From Pseudorhodobacter wandonensis (GTDB lineage Bacteria; Pseudomonadota; Alphaproteobacteria; Rhodobacterales; Rhodobacteraceae), in contig NZ_LGHT01000036.1 of the NCBI RefSeq assembly GCF_001202035.1, positions 186,001 to 250,000 on the forward strand: a stretch of DNA of 64,000 bases, written 5' to 3'. The notes under the pieces are model-generated. The model saw only the letters and a list, made by a program, of their open reading frames with translations, made no database searches and was not told the DNA's origin. Shown here piece after piece: positions 17,675 to 25,665 of the stretch. Both the position numbers and the translations under genes were made by a program. How positions within the stretch are numbered: the stretch's first letter is position 1; the number at the start of each line of letters is the position of its first letter.

Positions 17675-20600
17675 TCAATGGAAATCGCGGCTGGGAAACA
17701 GCTTTTTCGCCTGCTCGCGTGGGTGACGTGCTGATGACCTTATACTGCCCCCGACAGGGCGTTTTGTTTCATCTGCACGGCCGTCATTGGCATCGATCAT
17801 CACGGGGCGACCAAGGGTGGCCAGCAGGTGCGAGACATCCTCGACACTCTCGGCAATCAGGTGCGTTGTTGGTCCATCGTGCTGCACGCGCCCTGTCACG
17901 CGGACCAACCGTCCCGCGATAACGGCTTTGCGAAAGGCGTGATAGACCTGCTTCCAGACGATCACATTGGCGGTGCCGGATTCGTCCTCCAGCGTCAGGA
18001 AGATCACCCCCGCTGCCGTGCCGGGGCGTTGGCGGGTGATGACAAGACCCGTGATCGTAGCGCGGCCTTTTGTATTGGTAAGACGGTCATGCGGTAAGCT
18101 TTCCGGCAGGCGCGGCCGCAGCAGTTCCATCGGGTGGGCGCGCAAGGACAGGCGCAGCGACAGGTAATCCTCAATCACCTCTTGGCCCAGCGTCATTTGC
18201 GGCAAGCTGACGGTTGGCTCGTTTTCGCCTTCGCCATCAGTGCCGAACAGCGGCAGAGGCGCGGGGGCTTTCAGCGCCTTCGCGGCCCATAGCGCATCGC
18301 GGCGGGTGAGGCCAAGGGCGGCAAAGGCATCCGCTTCGGCCAGCCGTTCCAGCGTGTCGGGCGGGATGCCAGCACGCCGCCACAGGCTTTCAACATCAGG
18401 GTAGCCATTGGCGCGGGCGGCGGTAATCCACGCGGCGTCCTCGGCGCGTAAGCCTTTGATTTGGCGAAAGCCAAGGCGCAGGGCAAGGCTGCCATCGGGG
18501 CGGGGTTCCAGCGTGCAATCCCAATCGGAATGGTTCACCGAAATGGGCCGCACCTCGACGCCCCTATCGCGGGCGTCACGCACCAGTTGCGCGGGGGCAT
18601 AAAACCCCATCGGCTGGCTGTTCAACAACGCGCAGGTGAACACGGCCTGATGATGGCATTTCAACCACGCGGAAATATAGACGAGGCGCGCAAAACTGGC
18701 GGCGTGACTTTCGGGGAAACCGTAGCTGCCAAATCCTTCGATCTGCGCGAAACAGCGGGTCGCGAAATCCGCATCATACCCCCGCGCCAACATCCCCGAG
18801 ATGAAACGGTCGCGGAACCCGCCGATGGTGCCCATGCGTTTGAAGGTGGCGAGGCTGCGGCGCAAACGGTCGGCCTCGGACGGGGTAAACCCTGCGGCGA
18901 CCACGGCGATTTGCATCGCTTGTTCTTGGAACAACGGCACGCCATAGGTGCGGCCCAACACCTCCATCATCGCGGGGCCAAGGTCTTCAACCGGTTCGCG
19001 GCCCATGCGGCGGTTGATGAACGGATGGACCATACCGCCTTGGATCGGGCCGGGGCGGATGATCGCGACCTCGCAAACGAGGTCATAAAACTTGCGCGGG
19101 CGCATGCGGGGCAGAAAGTTCAACTGCGCGCGGCTTTCGACCTGAAACACCCCGATGGCATCGGCACGGCAGAGCATATCATAGACGGGCGGATTTTCCG
19201 GCGGCACATTGGCCAGCGTCAGATTTTGGCCGCGATGCTGGGCCAACAGGCCGAACGCCTTGCGGATGCAGGTGAGCATGCCAAGCGCCAGAATATCGAC
19301 CTTGAGCAAGCCCAAAGCGTCGATATCATCCTTATCCCACTCAATAATCGTGCGGTCATCCATCGCGGCGTTTTCAATCGGGCAGAGCTCATCCAAACGC
19401 CCGTGCGTGATGACAAAGCCGCCGACATGCTGCGACAGATGGCGGGGAAAACCGATGATTTCACCAATCAATTTGGTCGCCAGCATGACGCGGCTGTCAG
19501 CAGGATTCAGCCCCGCATCACGCATCCGGTCCGCATCTGGGGCGGCAGCGGACCAGCCCCAGATTTGCCCCGACAACCGCGCGACCACGTCTTGCGACAG
19601 GCCCATGACCTTGCCCACCTCGCGGATCGCCGCGCGGCTGCGAAAATGGATGACCGTGGCGGTCAGGCCCGCGCGTTCGCGGCCGTAACGCTCGTAAATC
19701 CACTGGATCACCTCTTCGCGGCGCTCATGCTCGAAATCCACGTCGATATCCGGCGGCTCGCCGCGTTCTTTGCTGATAAAACGTTCAAAGATCAGGGTGA
19801 TGGATTCGGGCGGCACCTCGGTGATGCCCAAAAGGTAGCAGACCACCGAATTGGCGGCGGACCCGCGGCCTTGGCACAGGATGCCTTTGGAGCGTGCGAA
19901 TTGCACGATGTCATGCACGGTCAGGAAATAGGGAGCGTATTCCACCTCGCGGATCAGGGTCAGTTCCTTTTCCACGCGGTGGATGATTTTGGGCGGCGGT
20001 CCAGCGGGATAGCGCCAGTTCAGCCCCGCGCGGGTCAGGCGTTCAAGGCGGTCTTGTGCGGGTTCGCCGTCTTTCGCCTCATCGGGGTATTGATAGCGCA
20101 GCTCATTCAGCTGAAAGGCGCAGCGGTCGGCAATCTCGACCGTGCGGCGCAGGGCGGCGGGGTGCCGGTGAAACAGGCGGGCCATCTCGGCCCCGGTTTT
20201 CAGGCGGCGCTCGCCATTTGCAAGGCGGTTGGTGCCGATGTTGTCGATGGTGCAGCCCAGCCGCAGGCAGGTCAGCACATCGGCCAAAGGGCGGCGGGCG
20301 GCGCGGTGCATCAACGCATCACCGACCGCGACCATCGGCAGGTTGGTGTTTTGCGCCAGCATCGCCAACTGATCAAGGCGGGTTTGGTCGCGCCCGTCAT
20401 AGCGCGGGGCGGCGCCCAGAAAGCACTGGCTGGGAAATGCGCGGGCCACGGCCAGCAGGTCACTGCGGGGGCAGGTGGCCTCCAGCGGGTCGGGTGGCAG
20501 GGCGATCAGGATCATGCCTGCGCCCCATTCGCCCAGATCGGCGCGGGTCAGGTGGCATTCGCCTTTGGGCGCGCGGCGTTTGCCAAGCGAGAGAAGCCGC

Positions 20601-21022
20601 GTCAGGCGCGACCAAGCGGCGATATCGGTCGGCAAGGCCAGCCATTCCACACCCGAGTCGGTCAGCACCAGCCGCGCGCCAGCGATCAGTTTTGGCAGGG
20701 GGGCGTCTGGCTGTAATGGGGCATCGGTCGCGCCGCTGAAACGCGGCACAGTCTGGCGGCTGGAATGATCGGTCACCTGCTGCGACCGGATGGCAGGGCC
20801 GCCCTGTGCTGCGCCACTTTGCGCCGCCTCATCGCGCAGGCGGGCCAGTTCTTTCAACGCCGAGAATGCCCGCACCACACCCGCCACCGAGTTGCGGTCG
20901 GTGATGGCGATGGCGGACAGGCCAAGCTCGGCGGCGCGGGTGATCAATTCCTCGGGGTGCGAGGCGCCTTGCAGGAAAGTGAAGTTGGAGGTGGTGCAGA
21001 GCTCGGCATAGGCGTGGGTCAT
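17675..21022 (-). CDS. dnaE2: Error-prone DNA polymerase DnaE2
   Basis: A 1115-residue C-family polymerase for translesion synthesis in the SOS response. Order: PHP domain at the N-terminus (YAELCTTSNFTFLQGASHPE), polymerase core with CQGRGSAANSVVCYLLG and catalytic aspartates in PPDIDVDFEHERREE, helix-hairpin-helix region, and a C-terminal OB domain (ATITGLVITRQRPGTAAGVI). The PHP domain holds an extra Gln/Ser/Pro-rich stretch of about 40 residues near 68-110. DnaE2 of this type lacks its own clamp-binding motif and relies on ImuB. The ATG overlaps the imuB stop by four bases (ATGA), so it is the last gene of the LexA-controlled yedK-imuA-imuB-dnaE2 unit. Confidence 0.95.
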   Translation of the reverse strand: MTHAYAELCTTSNFTFLQGASHPEELITRAAELGLSAIAITDRNSVAGVVRAFSALKELARLRDEAAQSGAAQGGPAIRSQQVTDHSSRQTVPRFSGATDAPLQPDAPLPKLIAGARLVLTDSGVEWLALPTDIAAWSRLTRLLSLGKRRAPKGECHLTRADLGEWGAGMILIALPPDPLEATCPRSDLLAVARAFPSQCFLGAAPRYDGRDQTRLDQLAMLAQNTNLPMVAVGDALMHRAARRPLADVLTCLRLGCTIDNIGTNRLANGERRLKTGAEMARLFHRHPAALRRTVEIADRCAFQLNELRYQYPDEAKDGEPAQDRLERLTRAGLNWRYPAGPPPKIIHRVEKELTLIREVEYAPYFLTVHDIVQFARSKGILCQGRGSAANSVVCYLLGITEVPPESITLIFERFISKERGEPPDIDVDFEHERREEVIQWIYERYGRERAGLTATVIHFRSRAAIREVGKVMGLSQDVVARLSGQIWGWSAAAPDADRMRDAGLNPADSRVMLATKLIGEIIGFPRHLSQHVGGFVITHGRLDELCPIENAAMDDRTIIEWDKDDIDALGLLKVDILALGMLTCIRKAFGLLAQHRGQNLTLANVPPENPPVYDMLCRADAIGVFQVESRAQLNFLPRMRPRKFYDLVCEVAIIRPGPIQGGMVHPFINRRMGREPVEDLGPAMMEVLGRTYGVPLFQEQAMQIAVVAAGFTPSEADRLRRSLATFKRMGTIGGFRDRFISGMLARGYDADFATRCFAQIEGFGSYGFPESHAASFARLVYISAWLKCHHQAVFTCALLNSQPMGFYAPAQLVRDARDRGVEVRPISVNHSDWDCTLEPRPDGSLALRLGFRQIKGLRAEDAAWITAARANGYPDVESLWRRAGIPPDTLERLAEADAFAALGLTRRDALWAAKALKAPAPLPLFGTDGEGENEPTVSLPQMTLGQEVIEDYLSLRLSLRAHPMELLRPRLPESLPHDRLTNTKGRATITGLVITRQRPGTAAGVIFLTLEDESGTANVIVWKQVYHAFRKAVIAGRLVRVTGRVQHDGPTTHLIAESVEDVSHLLATLGRPVMIDANDGRADETKRPVGGSIRSSARHPREQAKKLFPSRDFH

Positions 21023-22575
21023 GCGAACTCGCCCTGCACATACCAGTTTTTGCCCCCTGCAGGTGCGGGCCAGTTTTTACCCCCTGCGGGGGCGGGCCAG
21101 TTTTTACCCTCTGTAGGGGCGGGCCAATCGGCGCTATGCGCTTGCGGCGTCACGAACAACCACAGGCGCGGGCCTTCTTGGGTTTCCACCCGCCAGTAAT
21201 CGCGCAAACCGCTGCGCCATGCGGGGTCATCAAACCACCATTCCGGCGTGATGCGTTCAGGCCCCATGGCGCGCAGGGTGGTAAACCGCATCCGCCGCCA
21301 GCGGAAATGGTTGGGCGGGTGGCCCGAGGCGGTGGTGACAGGTTCCGGCGCGAACAGGGTGATCGGGCGGCTGGGGCCCTTGTGACGGGGCTGGGTTTGC
21401 GGAGCGCTATAGGCGGCGGGGGCGATGATCTGGCTGCGCTCGGGGATCAGGCTGTCGGCAGGCAGCAGCCGCAGCACGCGGTCAAACCCGATGCGATTGC
21501 CGAGGGATGAGAGAAGATCGGCCAGCGCATCCTCATGCCGCACCGTTGAGCCACCGATCTGTTCAGGTGCCAGCGGTTCCACCACAGGGGCAGTCAGCCG
21601 CACGGCATCAATGCCAAAGCCTGCGTCGATATCGTCCACACCTTTGGCAAAAAGTGCTGCAATGCGGGTGGGGTCGCGCATCGGGCGGGCAAGGCCGATT
21701 TCCACCAGCACCACGCCGCGATCCACGCGGCGGAGTTCCAGTCGCACACGGCGCGCGCCCATACGGGTGGCGGCCAGCTTGGCGCACAGCCGATCGAGCA
21801 AACGTTCCAAGCCCGCCATCACGTCTGATTGCAAGCCAATCGGATCGGGCAAGGTCATCCGCACGCCGAAATGCGGGGCGTCAGGTTCGGCGGCAACGGG
21901 TTCGGCATGCTGCCCCAAAGCCTGATCGAGCCGCATCACCAAGCCTTGGCCAAAGCGGCGGGCCAGCGGCGCGCGGGGTAAGGGGAGGAGGTCACGAATG
22001 CGCGTCAAGCCAACCCGAGCCAACCCTGCTGCCGTATCATGATCAATGCGCAGCGCGGTGATCGGCAGGCGGCCAAGCCCCTGTTGCAACTGCCCGTCAG
22101 GGATAATCCCACCACCATGGCGGGCGAGCGCATGCGCCGCGCCGCGTGTGCCGGCAATGGCGCTGGTGGCGGCCAAACCAGCGCGTTCCAGCCGTGCTTG
22201 CAGGTCGTCACGCAGATCGGCCTCGCCGCCGAACAAATGCGGCACGCCGGAAATATCGGCCATCAACCCGTCCGGCCCATCGCTGGCCACCATCGGCGCA
22301 TAGCGGCTGGCCCAGCGGCGCAAGCTGGCCAAGGCTGCGGCCTCCCGCGCCAGATCGGCTGGGCGGGTGGCAAGATCGGGGCAAATCGCGCGGGCATCGG
22401 CCAGCGCCATGCCGCGCGACAGGCCAAGTGCCATGGCCGACGGATTAACGCAATGCAGATGATCGGAATTACCCGACCGCAGGGTCAGGGCAAATGGCCC
22501 CTCAACGGGCCTGTCCCGCAGGCTGGTGTCGCTCGCCAGCCGCGGAAACCATATGGAAAGCAGTCGTCGCGCCAT
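21019..22575 (-). CDS. imuB: ImuB, catalytically inactive Y-family polymerase of the mutasome
   Basis: A 518-residue Y-family-like protein that bridges ImuA, DnaE2 and the beta clamp during mutagenic repair. It starts MARRLLSIWFPRLASD: the N-terminal strand carries no DxD as active Y polymerases do, consistent with a loss of catalysis known for ImuB. The little-finger-like region spans about 230-340. The C-terminal tail ends in WYVQGEFA preceded by three near-identical 9-residue repeats (WPAP-x-x-GKN), encoded by 27-bp tandem repeats at 21043-21123. It overlaps imuA by 74 bp at its 5' end and dnaE2 by 4 bp at its 3' end. Confidence 0.93.
   Translation of the reverse strand: MARRLLSIWFPRLASDTSLRDRPVEGPFALTLRSGNSDHLHCVNPSAMALGLSRGMALADARAICPDLATRPADLAREAAALASLRRWASRYAPMVASDGPDGLMADISGVPHLFGGEADLRDDLQARLERAGLAATSAIAGTRGAAHALARHGGGIIPDGQLQQGLGRLPITALRIDHDTAAGLARVGLTRIRDLLPLPRAPLARRFGQGLVMRLDQALGQHAEPVAAEPDAPHFGVRMTLPDPIGLQSDVMAGLERLLDRLCAKLAATRMGARRVRLELRRVDRGVVLVEIGLARPMRDPTRIAALFAKGVDDIDAGFGIDAVRLTAPVVEPLAPEQIGGSTVRHEDALADLLSSLGNRIGFDRVLRLLPADSLIPERSQIIAPAAYSAPQTQPRHKGPSRPITLFAPEPVTTASGHPPNHFRWRRMRFTTLRAMGPERITPEWWFDDPAWRSGLRDYWRVETQEGPRLWLFVTPQAHSADWPAPTEGKNWPAPAGGKNWPAPAGGKNWYVQGEFA
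21043..21123 (-). repeat. 27-bp in-frame tandem repeat, three units, in imuB 3' end
   Basis: Units 21043-21069, 21070-21096 and 21097-21123 differ at only a few positions. Each encodes the nine residues WPAP[AT][GE]GKN in imuB. The length is a multiple of three, so unit gain or loss would leave the frame intact. Confidence 0.95.
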
Positions 22576-23086
22576 TCCAGTTTACAACCCAATTCCCTAA
22601 AGTTCCTCTTTTGTTCTTTTTAAGAGTCCAGCGATGCAGAGTCGAGTCTGCATCGCTGGCCTGCGGTTCACAATGCCAACGGCTCTCGGTCGCATTGCTG
22701 CCCGCATCGGTCTGGATCAGCATCAGACCCGTGGTGCCGCCCGCCTCCGCGGCGAGTTGAAAACGCCTGCCAGCGGTCAGGGACAGCGGCTGCGACGGCT
22801 CGGCAATCACCAAGCCAACTGGGGCCGCGCGCAGGGTTTCTTCAACGCACCAGAGCAGGTCGGTCTCATTTGTCGGGCGCAGCAAGTGCAGCCGTTCGCC
22901 CACGCCCTGCGGCAACCCGCGCAGCATTAGTATCTCGGGCATATGGGCAGGAATTATCCAGATCAACGGCCCAACGTGGCGCGCGGCTTGAAAACCCGCA
23001 AAGGCGCGGCGGCCACGGCCCTCGGCCTCATGCACGCGTCGTTTCAAAAGGGAGAAGGGATCGCCCGAAGAGGTTTCAAACCGCAT
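22502..23086 (-). CDS. imuA: ImuA-family mutasome protein
   Basis: A 194-residue RecA-fold-like protein of the SOS mutasome, shorter than the roughly 230-residue typical form. The core reads GPLIWIIPAH, then LHLLRPTNETDLLWCVEETL, APVGLVIAEP and GLMLIQTDAG, matching the ImuA pattern used with ImuB in Rhodobacterales; no Walker A is present. The start at 23086 (MRFETSSGDPF) overlaps the yedK stop by 11 bp; an in-frame ATG at 23125 would lie deeper within yedK. ImuA binds ImuB and tunes RecA. The 3' end overlaps imuB by 74 bp, an unusually long overlap. Confidence 0.85.
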   Translation of the reverse strand: MRFETSSGDPFSLLKRRVHEAEGRGRRAFAGFQAARHVGPLIWIIPAHMPEILMLRGLPQGVGERLHLLRPTNETDLLWCVEETLRAAPVGLVIAEPSQPLSLTAGRRFQLAAEAGGTTGLMLIQTDAGSNATESRWHCEPQASDADSTLHRWTLKKNKRGTLGNWVVNWNGATTAFHMVSAAGERHQPAGQAR

Positions 23087-23756
23087 CGACGCGCCCGCCT
23101 TCGGCAACGATCTGCAACATGCCATCGGGCAGGGGGCGTTGTAATTGCAACGCTTCGGTCGTGGGGGCGGTCAGCCAACGCCGCCATTCTTCAGGCCGCG
23201 TCAAAATCACCGGCATGGCTTTGGGGTGAATCGGCGCCACCTCGGCATTGGGCGGGCAGGTGAGGAAGCCAAAGAGATCGGCCGTCACCTCGCCTTCCTT
23301 CAACTTGCGCACCGAGGTCCATTCGGTGTGCAGCCCAGCGAAAAACGCCAACGGGCGGTCCGGCCCAAGAGCAAACCAGATGGGATGGTTGCGCGGGCTG
23401 CCTGCGCGGGTATCGATTTCGGAAAAGCTGGTGAAAGGCACGAGGCAGCGGTTCTCTACCCCCAGCCAGCGCCGCCAGTGGGACGAGGCGGTATTGCGGA
23501 TATTCGTGACACCGGGATCGGTGCGCTTGCCTTTCAGAAAAACATCCGGCGTGGGCATCCCCCAGCGGGCCTTGGCCATTTGCCAGCCGGTCTGCGCCCC
23601 CTTCCGGATGATCGGCGCGGCATAATCGGGGTAGATGCCGGTTTGCGCGGGAAGGTTGCCGGCTAGATCCTCCAGCGTCTCATCCCCGATCAGCACATCA
23701 TCAAACACATTCCGCATCGCATCCTGGCTTTTGGTCTGGGAATAGAGGTTGCACAT
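23076..23756 (-). CDS. yedK: SOS response-associated peptidase family protein (SRAP/YedK/HMCES)
   Basis: A 226-residue SRAP protein, which forms a stable thiazolidine crosslink with abasic sites in single-stranded DNA through Cys2. MCNLYS at the start supplies that Cys once Met is removed; the conserved ENRCLVPFTSFSE segment and the HPKAMPVIL motif supply the Glu and His positions of the active site. The start at 23756 is dictated by the need for Cys at position 2, although the frame is open upstream. The LexA box sits 34 bp upstream. It heads the imuA-imuB-dnaE2 operon, tying abasic-site shielding to error-prone synthesis. Confidence 0.93.
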   Translation of the reverse strand: MCNLYSQTKSQDAMRNVFDDVLIGDETLEDLAGNLPAQTGIYPDYAAPIIRKGAQTGWQMAKARWGMPTPDVFLKGKRTDPGVTNIRNTASSHWRRWLGVENRCLVPFTSFSEIDTRAGSPRNHPIWFALGPDRPLAFFAGLHTEWTSVRKLKEGEVTADLFGFLTCPPNAEVAPIHPKAMPVILTRPEEWRRWLTAPTTEALQLQRPLPDGMLQIVAEGGRVDAV

Positions 23757-23789
23757 GGGGATGTCCGGAATCGTGGGTGGGCTTGTCTG

Positions 23790-23804
23790 GAACTTTACAG
23801 GAAC
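23790..23804 (-). promoter_or_regulatory. LexA box of the yedK-imuAB-dnaE2 operon
   Basis: On the minus strand the sequence is GTTC-CTGTAAA-GTTC, an exact match to the alphaproteobacterial LexA consensus GTTC-N7-GTTC, 34 bp before the yedK start codon. Confidence 0.88.
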
Positions 23805-24215
23805 ATGCTTGGAAAATAAATGGCTCCGTTTGCGGCAAAAACTCCCGAAACAAGATATGCTGTGCAACGTGAGGGGTGAGCTTTGGCCCATTCAGAGCGT
23901 GATGGAAAATTAAATTCAGCTTTTCCGAGCAGTTTTTTGTGGGCGGCATCGGACGGATTTTTAGGCGCCAGAACCTCGATGAACAGATCGAAAATGAGAC
24001 GAAGATTCTGGTCTGTATCCGCTTGAAAACCCTGGGCTATGGACGATTTAAACCTGTTGGCAAAATGAACCGCAGGGGCGGCAGGATGCCATCTCTCTGG
24101 GGCCGTCAAAGCCCCGCAGCCTTTCAGTCAATGTGCTGGAGCATGCCATCAGGGGGTATTCGATGCAGTGACCTTCACCGAAAGCGGCGAATACACCTGT
24201 CTTTCGTTGGTCGAA
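23805..24215. other. Intergenic stretch upstream of yedK without a recognised gene
   Basis: Holds the upstream promoter region of the SOS operon and a weak hairpin (GGGGC/GCCCC at 24099-24115). A 104-codon open frame on the minus strand (23795-24109) encodes an unrecognised product and ends inside the LexA box; base usage gives no strong coding signal, so I do not call it a gene. Confidence 0.5.
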
Positions 24216-24836
24216 TTACGCTTTGGCGACGCGGGGGCGGGCGGTCTTTGGAACGGGCAGTGCTATTTCATCGAACGGCATTGCCAGTTGCGCCTCGGCA
24301 TGCAGCACAACCATAGCTGCCGCGCGCGCATCTTCGCCTGCGTCGTGATGGTGAAAATGCAAATTTAATACCAGTTTCAGATTGGCCAGACCATGCCCGC
24401 CGTTGCCTTTCAGCTCGGGCCAAGCGCGCCGGGCGATCCTGACGCTGTCGCTCCAGTTTAGGGGCGGCGGCTCAAGGCCCAAAAAACGATGCGCGGCGTT
24501 GATGGCCTGTTTGTCAAAGTTGCTGTGCTGAATGAGTTGATGCCGGGCGAGCAGCGGCAACAAGATCTCAAACGCCTCGGCAAAGGGCAGGGCGTCCGCC
24601 ACATGGTCCGGCCCGATCCCGTGCAGCCGTATATTGAACGGGTCGAAATGGGTGCGCGGATTGACCAGCATCGAGAATGTCTGGATGCCATTGTCGGGCC
24701 CCACACAGGCGAGGCCGATCTGGCAGATGCTGGCGGCATCGCTGCACGCCGTCTCGACATCCAGTGCGATAAACCGAAAATCCCCTTCGGGGACGTGGCT
24801 TATATGTTGAAAGTCTGGGCGGAAAGAGGGGGGCAT
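24216..24836 (-). CDS. DnaQ-like 3'-5' exonuclease
   Basis: A 206-residue DEDD-family exonuclease resembling the epsilon proofreading domain. Motif Exo I is ALDVETA (D26, E28), Exo II lies in QHSNFDKQAI and Exo III in HHDAGEDARAA, the HxAxxD arrangement of the DEDDh group. The protein has no further domain, so it is a stand-alone exonuclease of unknown partner rather than the replicative epsilon. It is oriented like the SOS operon just downstream of it but is separated from it by 459 bp and has no LexA box visible in front of it; an indirect repair link is possible only. Confidence 0.88.
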   Translation of the reverse strand: MPPSFRPDFQHISHVPEGDFRFIALDVETACSDAASICQIGLACVGPDNGIQTFSMLVNPRTHFDPFNIRLHGIGPDHVADALPFAEAFEILLPLLARHQLIQHSNFDKQAINAAHRFLGLEPPPLNWSDSVRIARRAWPELKGNGGHGLANLKLVLNLHFHHHDAGEDARAAAMVVLHAEAQLAMPFDEIALPVPKTARPRVAKA

Positions 24837-25094: not shown

Positions 25095-25466
25095 TCAGCA
25101 AAAAGTCGATGATGGGGTGCGCGCCAGGGCGGTTCTTGGCAACTGCCATGTGCCGTTGTCTAACGCGTCTTGAATGCCTTTAAGGGCATATTCAGCGACA
25201 TGTTTGAATTTGCGGGTTTGGGCGGGAAGCTTGTTTTTTATGCGTGCCTGCGTTTCGTAAAGCAACTCCCACGCTCGCTCTACCGCTTCGTCTAAATCAT
25301 CAGTCTTTGTGCTCTTTACGATGCGTTTGCCGTTATCCAGCGTCAGCCGCGCGTACCAATTCTCGCTACCCTGCCGCTTATCCAGCTTCAGTTTCTTGTG
25401 CACATTGACTGTTGTTATGCCGTAGCTCATCGCCGCTTTTTTCGCTAAGTGCCTGTTGCTGAACAC
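25095..25466 (-). pseudogene. Truncated tyrosine-integrase remnant (N-terminal arm-binding part)
   Basis: Residues about 13-110 (HKKLKLDKRQGSENWYARL then YETQARIKNKLPAQTRKFKH) match the N-terminal arm- and core-binding region of phage/island integrases. The frame then ends after about 15 unrelated residues, and the whole catalytic domain with its Arg-His-Arg-Tyr residues is missing, so it cannot recombine. The likely start is 25430 (MSYGITTVNVH). It points away from tRNA-Cys at 25592-25665, 126 bp away, the classical position of an integrase next to its attachment site, so it is the leftover of an element that once sat at this tRNA. Confidence 0.8.
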
Positions 25467-25591: not shown

Positions 25592-25665
25592 TGGAGGCGG
25601 GTACCGGAATCGAACCGGTCTACTCGGATTTGCAATCCGGTGCATAGCCTGCCTGCCCACCCGCC
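25592..25665 (-). tRNA. tRNA-Cys (GCA)
   Basis: On the minus strand the acceptor stem GGCGGGT pairs with ACCCGCC, followed by the discriminator U and an encoded CCA (25592-25594). The anticodon arm reads CCGGA-TTGCAAA-TCCGA-like, with anticodon GCA; the T arm ACCGG-TTCGATT-CCGGT is perfect. The tRNA lies at the attachment end of an integrase remnant. Confidence 0.95.

Follow-up and report, generated by a model that had tools for sequence, protein, structure and literature searches.

The window analyzed here, a 64,000-nucleotide stretch of the Pseudorhodobacter wandonensis genome (contig NZ_LGHT01000036.1, positions 186,001 to 250,000), carries on its minus strand a mutasome cassette in the order SRAP-imuA-imuB-dnaE2. 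This cassette very probably comprises two nested SOS transcription units, one spanning all four genes and the other only imuB-dnaE2. Of the two LexA-box promoters, the outer one, before SRAP (P1), would drive SRAP-imuA-imuB-dnaE2, and the inner one, lying in the 3' coding letters of imuA (P2), would drive imuB-dnaE2 alone. LexA would sit on P1 and P2 until damage; after LexA cleavage, imuB and dnaE2 would be expressed from both promoters, and SRAP and imuA from P1 only. LexA binding, transcription from P2, the output of P2, and unequal amounts of ImuA and ImuB-DnaE2 are what we infer from the sequence. The association of these genes is already known; what is to be retained is the two-promoter layout, in which imuA codons conceal a promoter, and this layout is well supported by sequence comparison.

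Two LexA boxes in one cassette

The original prediction placed SRAP at the head of an ImuA-ImuB-DnaE2 operon, behind one exact LexA box and in one transcript. The order and the overlaps of the four genes (11, 74, and 4 bp) were recovered at the same coordinates among the open reading frames of the window, with matches to PF02586 (SRAP) and NF004225 (DnaE2), and an exact GTTC-N7-GTTC box does lie in front (GTTCCTGTAAAGTTC, 23790-23804, minus strand), 33 nucleotides before the SRAP start. However, it is not the only one: a second exact box (GAACAAAAGAGGAAC on the coding strand; 22602-22616, minus strand) lies inside imuA, 26 nucleotides before the ATG of imuB. The single transcript fares less well for the same reason, as the conserved, promoter-like element to which the inner box belongs could drive imuB-dnaE2 without SRAP and imuA, so that separate promoters are indicated at the sequence level.

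GTTC-N7-GTTC is given as the alphaproteobacterial LexA box in the available part of PMC7987155. The bare box alone is weak evidence: its eight letters match five times in the window versus a shuffle mean of 1.63, and in the 3.89-Mb genome there are 99 exact matches versus 221 for the reversed control pattern. Bare boxes are not rare, and both operon boxes therefore needed comparative support. The family sample used for this purpose covers 248 genera of Rhodobacteraceae. A tree built from 57 ImuA rows places all SRAP-headed loci in a single well supported group, in which 17 of 21 rows have SRAP; none of the 35 rows of the sister clade shows SRAP in the upstream sequence covered.

The box ahead of SRAP is exact in 12 of 15 SRAP-headed loci versus 0 of 39 control windows and, with up to one mismatch, is found in 14 of 15 versus 5 of 39. 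The embedded box is exact in 14 of the 15. No exact box lies between SRAP and imuA at any of these 15 loci. Where imuA is not preceded by SRAP, an exact box before imuA is found in 3 of 38 loci, and the embedded one in 37 of 38. Within the sister clade, one gene in 35 has an exact box up to 200 nucleotides upstream of imuA; allowing one mismatch gives 7 of 35, with no excess over control windows (25/130). L144, the sole sister-clade imuA with a box upstream, is also alone there in having no embedded box. Since upstream boxes are this scarce and the embedded box is kept, the sole exact LexA box near the cassette start in most sister-clade loci examined is the one inside imuA. Comparative conservation thus makes both operon boxes credible: each is a GTTC-N7-GTTC at a putative promoter, kept in relatives as expected of the LexA (SOS) regulon, and LexA is predicted to bind them. 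A box of the E. coli type, CTGT-N8-ACAG, has zero matches within the window. Four loci (L105, L115, L137, and L138) have three GAAC half-sites spaced by 7 at the embedded promoter, that is, two overlapping LexA boxes.

A promoter-like element inside imuA

Read along the coding strand, the embedded element consists of GACTCGACTC (22639-22648, minus strand), a 10-mer that resembles a -35 element and has its sole copy in this genome here, then 16 nucleotides (17 from its TCGACT core), the -10-like hexamer TAAAAA (22617-22622, minus strand), the LexA box, 26 nucleotides, and imuB. A TA step at 17 nucleotides is present in 51 of 52 embedded loci, TATTAA, TATAAA, and TATCAA being the most frequent hexamers. 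The composite pattern GACTCGACTC-N8..38-GAACN7GAAC occurs in 102 of the 248 family genomes, and its reversed control in 0. When 30 of the composite loci were fetched, an ImuB match lay directly downstream in all 30 (one of them weak, at 23% identity); imuA spans the element in 17 and has no match there in 13. In a public species collection, 63 of the 80 matches listed lie before imuB, 14 lie elsewhere, and 3 are too short to judge; among the 63, imuA runs across the element in 35 and does not in 28. One of the 14 (L264) has the element directly ahead of a frame that reads like DnaE2.

As a general SOS or CcrM-promoter signature, GACTCGACTC is not supported by genome counts. Ten genomes picked among known carriers hold 17 copies versus 26 of the reversed control, 12 of the 17 being at imuB by coordinate, and for the core CTCGACTC the own genome has 17 occurrences versus 26 of its control. 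A second, small set of sites combining GACTCGACTC and a LexA box lies away from the imuB found in the same genomes: one at L233, where tblastn separates the site from imuB and the site precedes a 410-residue frame, and others, on contigs other than that of imuB, at G032:C40:8175, G019:C11:12765, G142:C25:10803, and G069:C100:9439. A perfect 13-bp inverted repeat surrounds the embedded -35-like element in the window (22628-22659; hairpin z -6.6 as single-stranded DNA). A conserved hairpin was rejected, as three relatives lack the repeat and fold with z of 0.3 to 0.7.

Codon choice across the imuA-imuB overlap

The inner element is written in imuA codons, and its conservation exceeds what the protein demands. 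Among the 53 family loci in which imuA overlaps imuB, the 10-mer is present in 46, the box in 51, and both in 46. When codons were redrawn 2000 times from imuA's own usage with each protein fixed, the means were 0.39 (10-mer), 1.52 (box), and 0.01 (both), with maxima of 4, 7, and 1, a comparison in which the 53 rows are related by descent and are not independent trials. Identity by descent alone has little room, however, because the median end branch of the ImuA tree is 0.42 changes per column.

A codon alignment of the same 53 loci locates the constraint. In the columns that precede the element, same-codon identity is above expectation by a mean of 0.07 (standard deviation 0.09, 123 columns); at the element, the excess is 0.80 at Ser TCG, 0.62 at Thr ACT, and 0.66 at Gly GGA, and it ranges from 0.46 to 0.58 at the Asp, Leu, Lys, Asn, and Lys columns. 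The excess upstream of the imuB start coincides with the codons of the -35, the -10, and the box. Columns within the gene overlap are also constrained, as the overlap predicts. As read from this alignment, codon choice shows selection acting on the letters of P2, beyond the protein.

The same element where no imuA overlaps imuB

The element also precedes imuB genes that no imuA overlaps. For this comparison, 100 ImuB places were fetched, nearly all from among the ImuB matches listed. From 101 loci, five without an ImuB N-terminal match were dropped (L154, L156, L157, L158, and L161), leaving 96: the 53 with overlap, 41 without an overlapping imuA, and two placed in neither class, namely L099, which has lost most of imuA, and L153, which lies at a contig end and has doubled pieces. 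In two loci counted as imuA-free (L155 and L163), imuA is matched weakly at a greater distance upstream.

An exact LexA box lies within 120 nucleotides of imuB in 35 of the 41. At least five of the six letters of TCGACT are found upstream at a fitting distance in 33 of these 35, versus 25 of 246 control windows, and none of the 33 elements lies within a detectable imuA. A TA step follows the TCGACT-like core by 17 or 18 nucleotides in 32 of 33, other offsets (8 to 31 nucleotides) giving 0 to 6; the distance from this core to the LexA box is variable, from 25 to 44 nucleotides. Judged by these spacings, the geometry is that of a putative promoter with a movable operator. P2 occurs irrespective of SRAP and even where imuB has no imuA overlapping it; by this distribution, it looks to be the older and more general part of the cassette.

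SRAP as the first gene

A survey of how often yedK heads the operon found SRAP-headed cassettes in 15 of the 248 genera sampled (15 genomes, 17 loci). Since the arrangement recurs to this extent, it is not a chance placement in a single strain. ImuB itself is matched at E 1e-20 or better in at least 211 of the 248 genomes. The SRAPs closest to that of the window mostly lie directly before imuA-imuB. SRAPs 51-66% identical to it by best match showed no imu match in 14 of 14 fetched flanks (up to 1.5 kb; L049, L051-L063), and one that is 82% identical (L038) is also without imu genes in its flanks. The original prediction had called the arrangement obligate and co-translated. Both terms are too strong: the 11-bp overlap between SRAP and imuA is exact in 11 of 15 SRAP-headed loci, and 4 of the 21 rows of the SRAP clade show no SRAP in the sequence covered; in two SRAP-less rows (L005 and L007), coverage upstream of imuA is only about 1 kb. 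On the ImuA tree, the SRAP label requires four changes, for example one gain and three losses, although only two of them are forced by well supported branches.

Plasmid records, which may overlap with genomes of the family sample, give a similar picture: the 11 records with an ImuA above 60% identity are the 11 best SRAP records, and the genes are adjacent by coordinate. Plasmids pDSHI03 of Dinoroseobacter shibae and p3 of Gemmobacter fulvus have the overlaps of 11, 74, and 4 bp seen in the window; in pAMI8 of Paracoccus aminophilus, the annotated overlaps are 17, 47, and 4. Three other plasmid SRAPs (53-62% identity) have no imu genes annotated nearby. By this distribution, SRAP belongs to one cassette clade, found on plasmids in several genera, and the cassette exists without SRAP.

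Decayed copies were also seen. In the same-genus genome G007 (L013), a full-length SRAP and imuA stand beside an imuB with stops, and the embedded box is one letter off. Contig C31 of G000 carries a second SRAP remnant (298384-298639; L034 2418-2640), in pieces of 53% and 59% identity that lie in different frames with one stop. The longer frame that has this remnant at its 5' end resembles a fumarylacetoacetate hydrolase.

Alternative explanations

Several observations weigh against two nested units. GACTCGACTC differs from the textbook -35 sequence TTGACA, and the composite-pattern loci, having been chosen by the exact pattern, cannot measure its true frequency. The embedded box is missing from L108, which is headed by SRAP, and from L144; in G034 (L099), both the box and most of imuA are missing, and the box that is one letter off in L013 belongs to a same-genus relative. 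Where no imuA overlaps imuB, an exact box near imuB is missing from 6 of the 41 loci. A sense frame of at least 100 codons crosses the element in 17 of the 33 imuA-free loci, as is frequent in G+C-rich DNA, and the label "intergenic" does not hold for these copies in general. LexA at the embedded box could also act as a roadblock instead of at a promoter.

The simplest competing account, that one LexA-controlled promoter yields one polycistronic SRAP-imuA-imuB-dnaE2 message and that the internal box is there by chance or driven by the protein, draws on the overlapping genes with a box in front, on the conservation of this imuA segment as protein (DST..W....KNK.GT), and on the 99 exact boxes of the genome. 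It is nevertheless most improbable: protein-preserving redraws give 1.5 boxes versus the 51 of 53 seen, the element recurs ahead of imuB where imuA does not overlap it, and 34 of the 35 SRAP-less sister-clade imuA genes are without an exact upstream box. Only slightly less remote is the reading of the embedded box as a roadblock or an operator tuning read-through and not as part of a sense promoter. The box does lie inside a transcribed gene, where LexA would meet polymerase coming from P1, and such a role is possible; yet it leaves unexplained why the box is conserved together with a -35-like element and, at a constant 17 nucleotides from it, a TA-rich -10, both oriented toward imuB, including at loci where no imuA overlaps.

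Two further proposals add to the nested units. GACTCGACTC contains a tandem CcrM-type GANTC pair and might be a dedicated mutasome control site, such that ImuB-DnaE2 mutagenesis would be gated both by LexA and by how freshly replicated DNA is methylated (or by a single-target factor), the gate lying in imuA codons and imuA falling outside LexA control in the larger clade. The 10-mer has one copy in this genome and one in 6 of 9 relatives checked, which were chosen as carriers. Where no imuA overlaps imuB, only part of the first GA persists, its A being found in 20 of 33 loci, and the position of the second GANTC that could be any letter is C at all 33, a letter pattern that fits a -35-like element better than a CcrM-promoter signature. 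We regard the gate as unlikely. A functional tie between SRAP and the mutasome, by which SRAP would shield abasic sites at the lesions that the mutasome bypasses or would contact ImuB, is compatible with the two-promoter layout and is a less doubtful proposal, though still a tentative one. In its favor, SRAP heads the cassette in 17 of the 21 rows of one well supported ImuA group, and the 11 plasmid records with an ImuA above 60% are those with the best SRAPs, adjacent to it. Against it, the 35 sister imuA rows and the 41 imuA-free loci show no SRAP in the upstream sequence covered, the SRAP label requires four changes on the ImuA tree (only two of them forced by well supported branches), related SRAPs lie in flanks without imu genes, and G007 keeps a full-length SRAP beside its broken imuB.

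If the two-promoter layout is correct, imuB-dnaE2 could stay active despite a polar deletion of SRAP or imuA, and cloning imuA would bring along a promoter of the downstream gene. The layout would be a natural case of a protein and a promoter sharing the same letters, and suggests that regulation of the error-prone polymerase half is separate from that of ImuA, its partner. SRAP, as a recruitment in one clade with apparent losses, would be suited to asking what it adds.

Relation to known systems

The general association of SRAP with ImuA, ImuB, and DnaE2, cited in the original prediction as known, was reported by Aravind and colleagues in 2013, who found DUF159/SRAP genes together with at least two of imuA, imuB, and dnaE2, as here; in the available part of that paper an autopeptidase is proposed and a promoter within imuA is not mentioned (PMC3765255). 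A 2026 polymerase survey, as far as its accessible text goes, links SRAP-related proteins to UmuC-like polymerases (PMC12926913).

The Caulobacter imuAB-dnaE2 SOS operon was reportedly described by Galhardo in 2005. In the portion of PMC1839093 at hand, the SOS-controlled imuA-imuB-dnaE2 of that alphaproteobacterium, similar in this respect, is described as one operon, with neither SRAP nor an embedded promoter mentioned. The available text of PMC3323433 includes imuA-imuB-dnaE2 in the alphaproteobacterial LexA core, with the internal site unmentioned. In Caulobacteraceae and Hyphomonadaceae, GANTC sites are kept at SOS genes including imuA, which the part of PMC7987155 at hand explains by their overlap with LexA boxes. 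GANTC sites kept at SOS genes are common to both cases. The GACTC repeats here make up a -35-like element that is clear of the LexA box and is assigned to imuB.

For D. shibae, the accessible text of PMC9426580 describes a four-gene mutagenic cassette of the imuA-imuB-dnaE2 type on the 126-kb plasmid, Dshi_3995-3998, and does not mention an internal promoter; we infer this cassette to be the SRAP-imuA-imuB-dnaE2 locus of pDSHI03, with the same overlaps as in the window. LexA sites of D. shibae are predicted in GTTC and GAAC groups in the part of PMC6473078 available, where the cassette is not named. No description of an internal imuB promoter was found in the available parts of this literature, and an earlier printed account may exist.

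Gene identities and neighboring sequences

SRAP (YedK/HMCES-like; 23076-23756, minus strand) is a 226-residue protein beginning with Met-Cys, and scores 76 bits against PF02586, above the curated cut-off of 27.1. A search of the own genome with the PF02586 model missed the window SRAP, which reaches 76 bits as a protein alone, and a protein search was used instead. Cys2, N-x-R, F-x-E, and the His of H-x-KAMPV are invariant across 15 SRAP-headed loci. The last three also align with 2aeg_A, the sole solved chain found, whose N-terminus lies outside the alignment. If Cys2 and the Asn, Arg, Glu, and His have the roles that we take them to have in YedK, the active-site residues are kept, and the protein may be predicted to cross-link covalently to abasic sites.

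The imuA product (22502-23086, minus strand; 194 residues) matches NF033429 (ImuA) at E 4e-10 and 39.8 bits. As this score is far below the curated cut-off of 150 bits, the name is used by position, conserved synteny, and partial similarity, for an ImuA-like accessory gene. ImuB (21019-22575, minus strand; 518 residues) is Y-family-like, with IMS (51.7 bits) and IMS_C (28.9 bits) domains both above cut-off. The aspartates usual for motif I are not seen in its N-terminal sequence, MARRLLSIWFPRLA, and the catalytic carboxylates may be missing. The error-prone polymerase DnaE2 (17675-21022, minus strand; 1115 residues) scores 1333.7 bits against NF004225 (cut-off 939). A tandem repeat at the 3' end of imuB (21043-21126; 27-bp unit, 3.1 copies) encodes GKNWPAPAG-like repeats ahead of a conserved ending, W-x-x-QGEF(A/V); this linker is shorter or different in the 7 relatives compared.

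An island flanked by direct repeats of a tRNA-Cys was rejected, the longest word of that gene shared elsewhere in the window being 13 bp. The tRNA-Cys itself (25592-25665) stands beside a short frame (25095-25466) with a weak, below-cut-off match to DUF6538, perhaps an integrase remnant. In 1-kb windows, the G+C fraction is 0.59-0.68 over 18000-24000 versus 0.52-0.60 around it. A gene for a DnaQ-like exonuclease (RNase_T; 24216-24836) precedes SRAP by about 460 bp and shares its strand.

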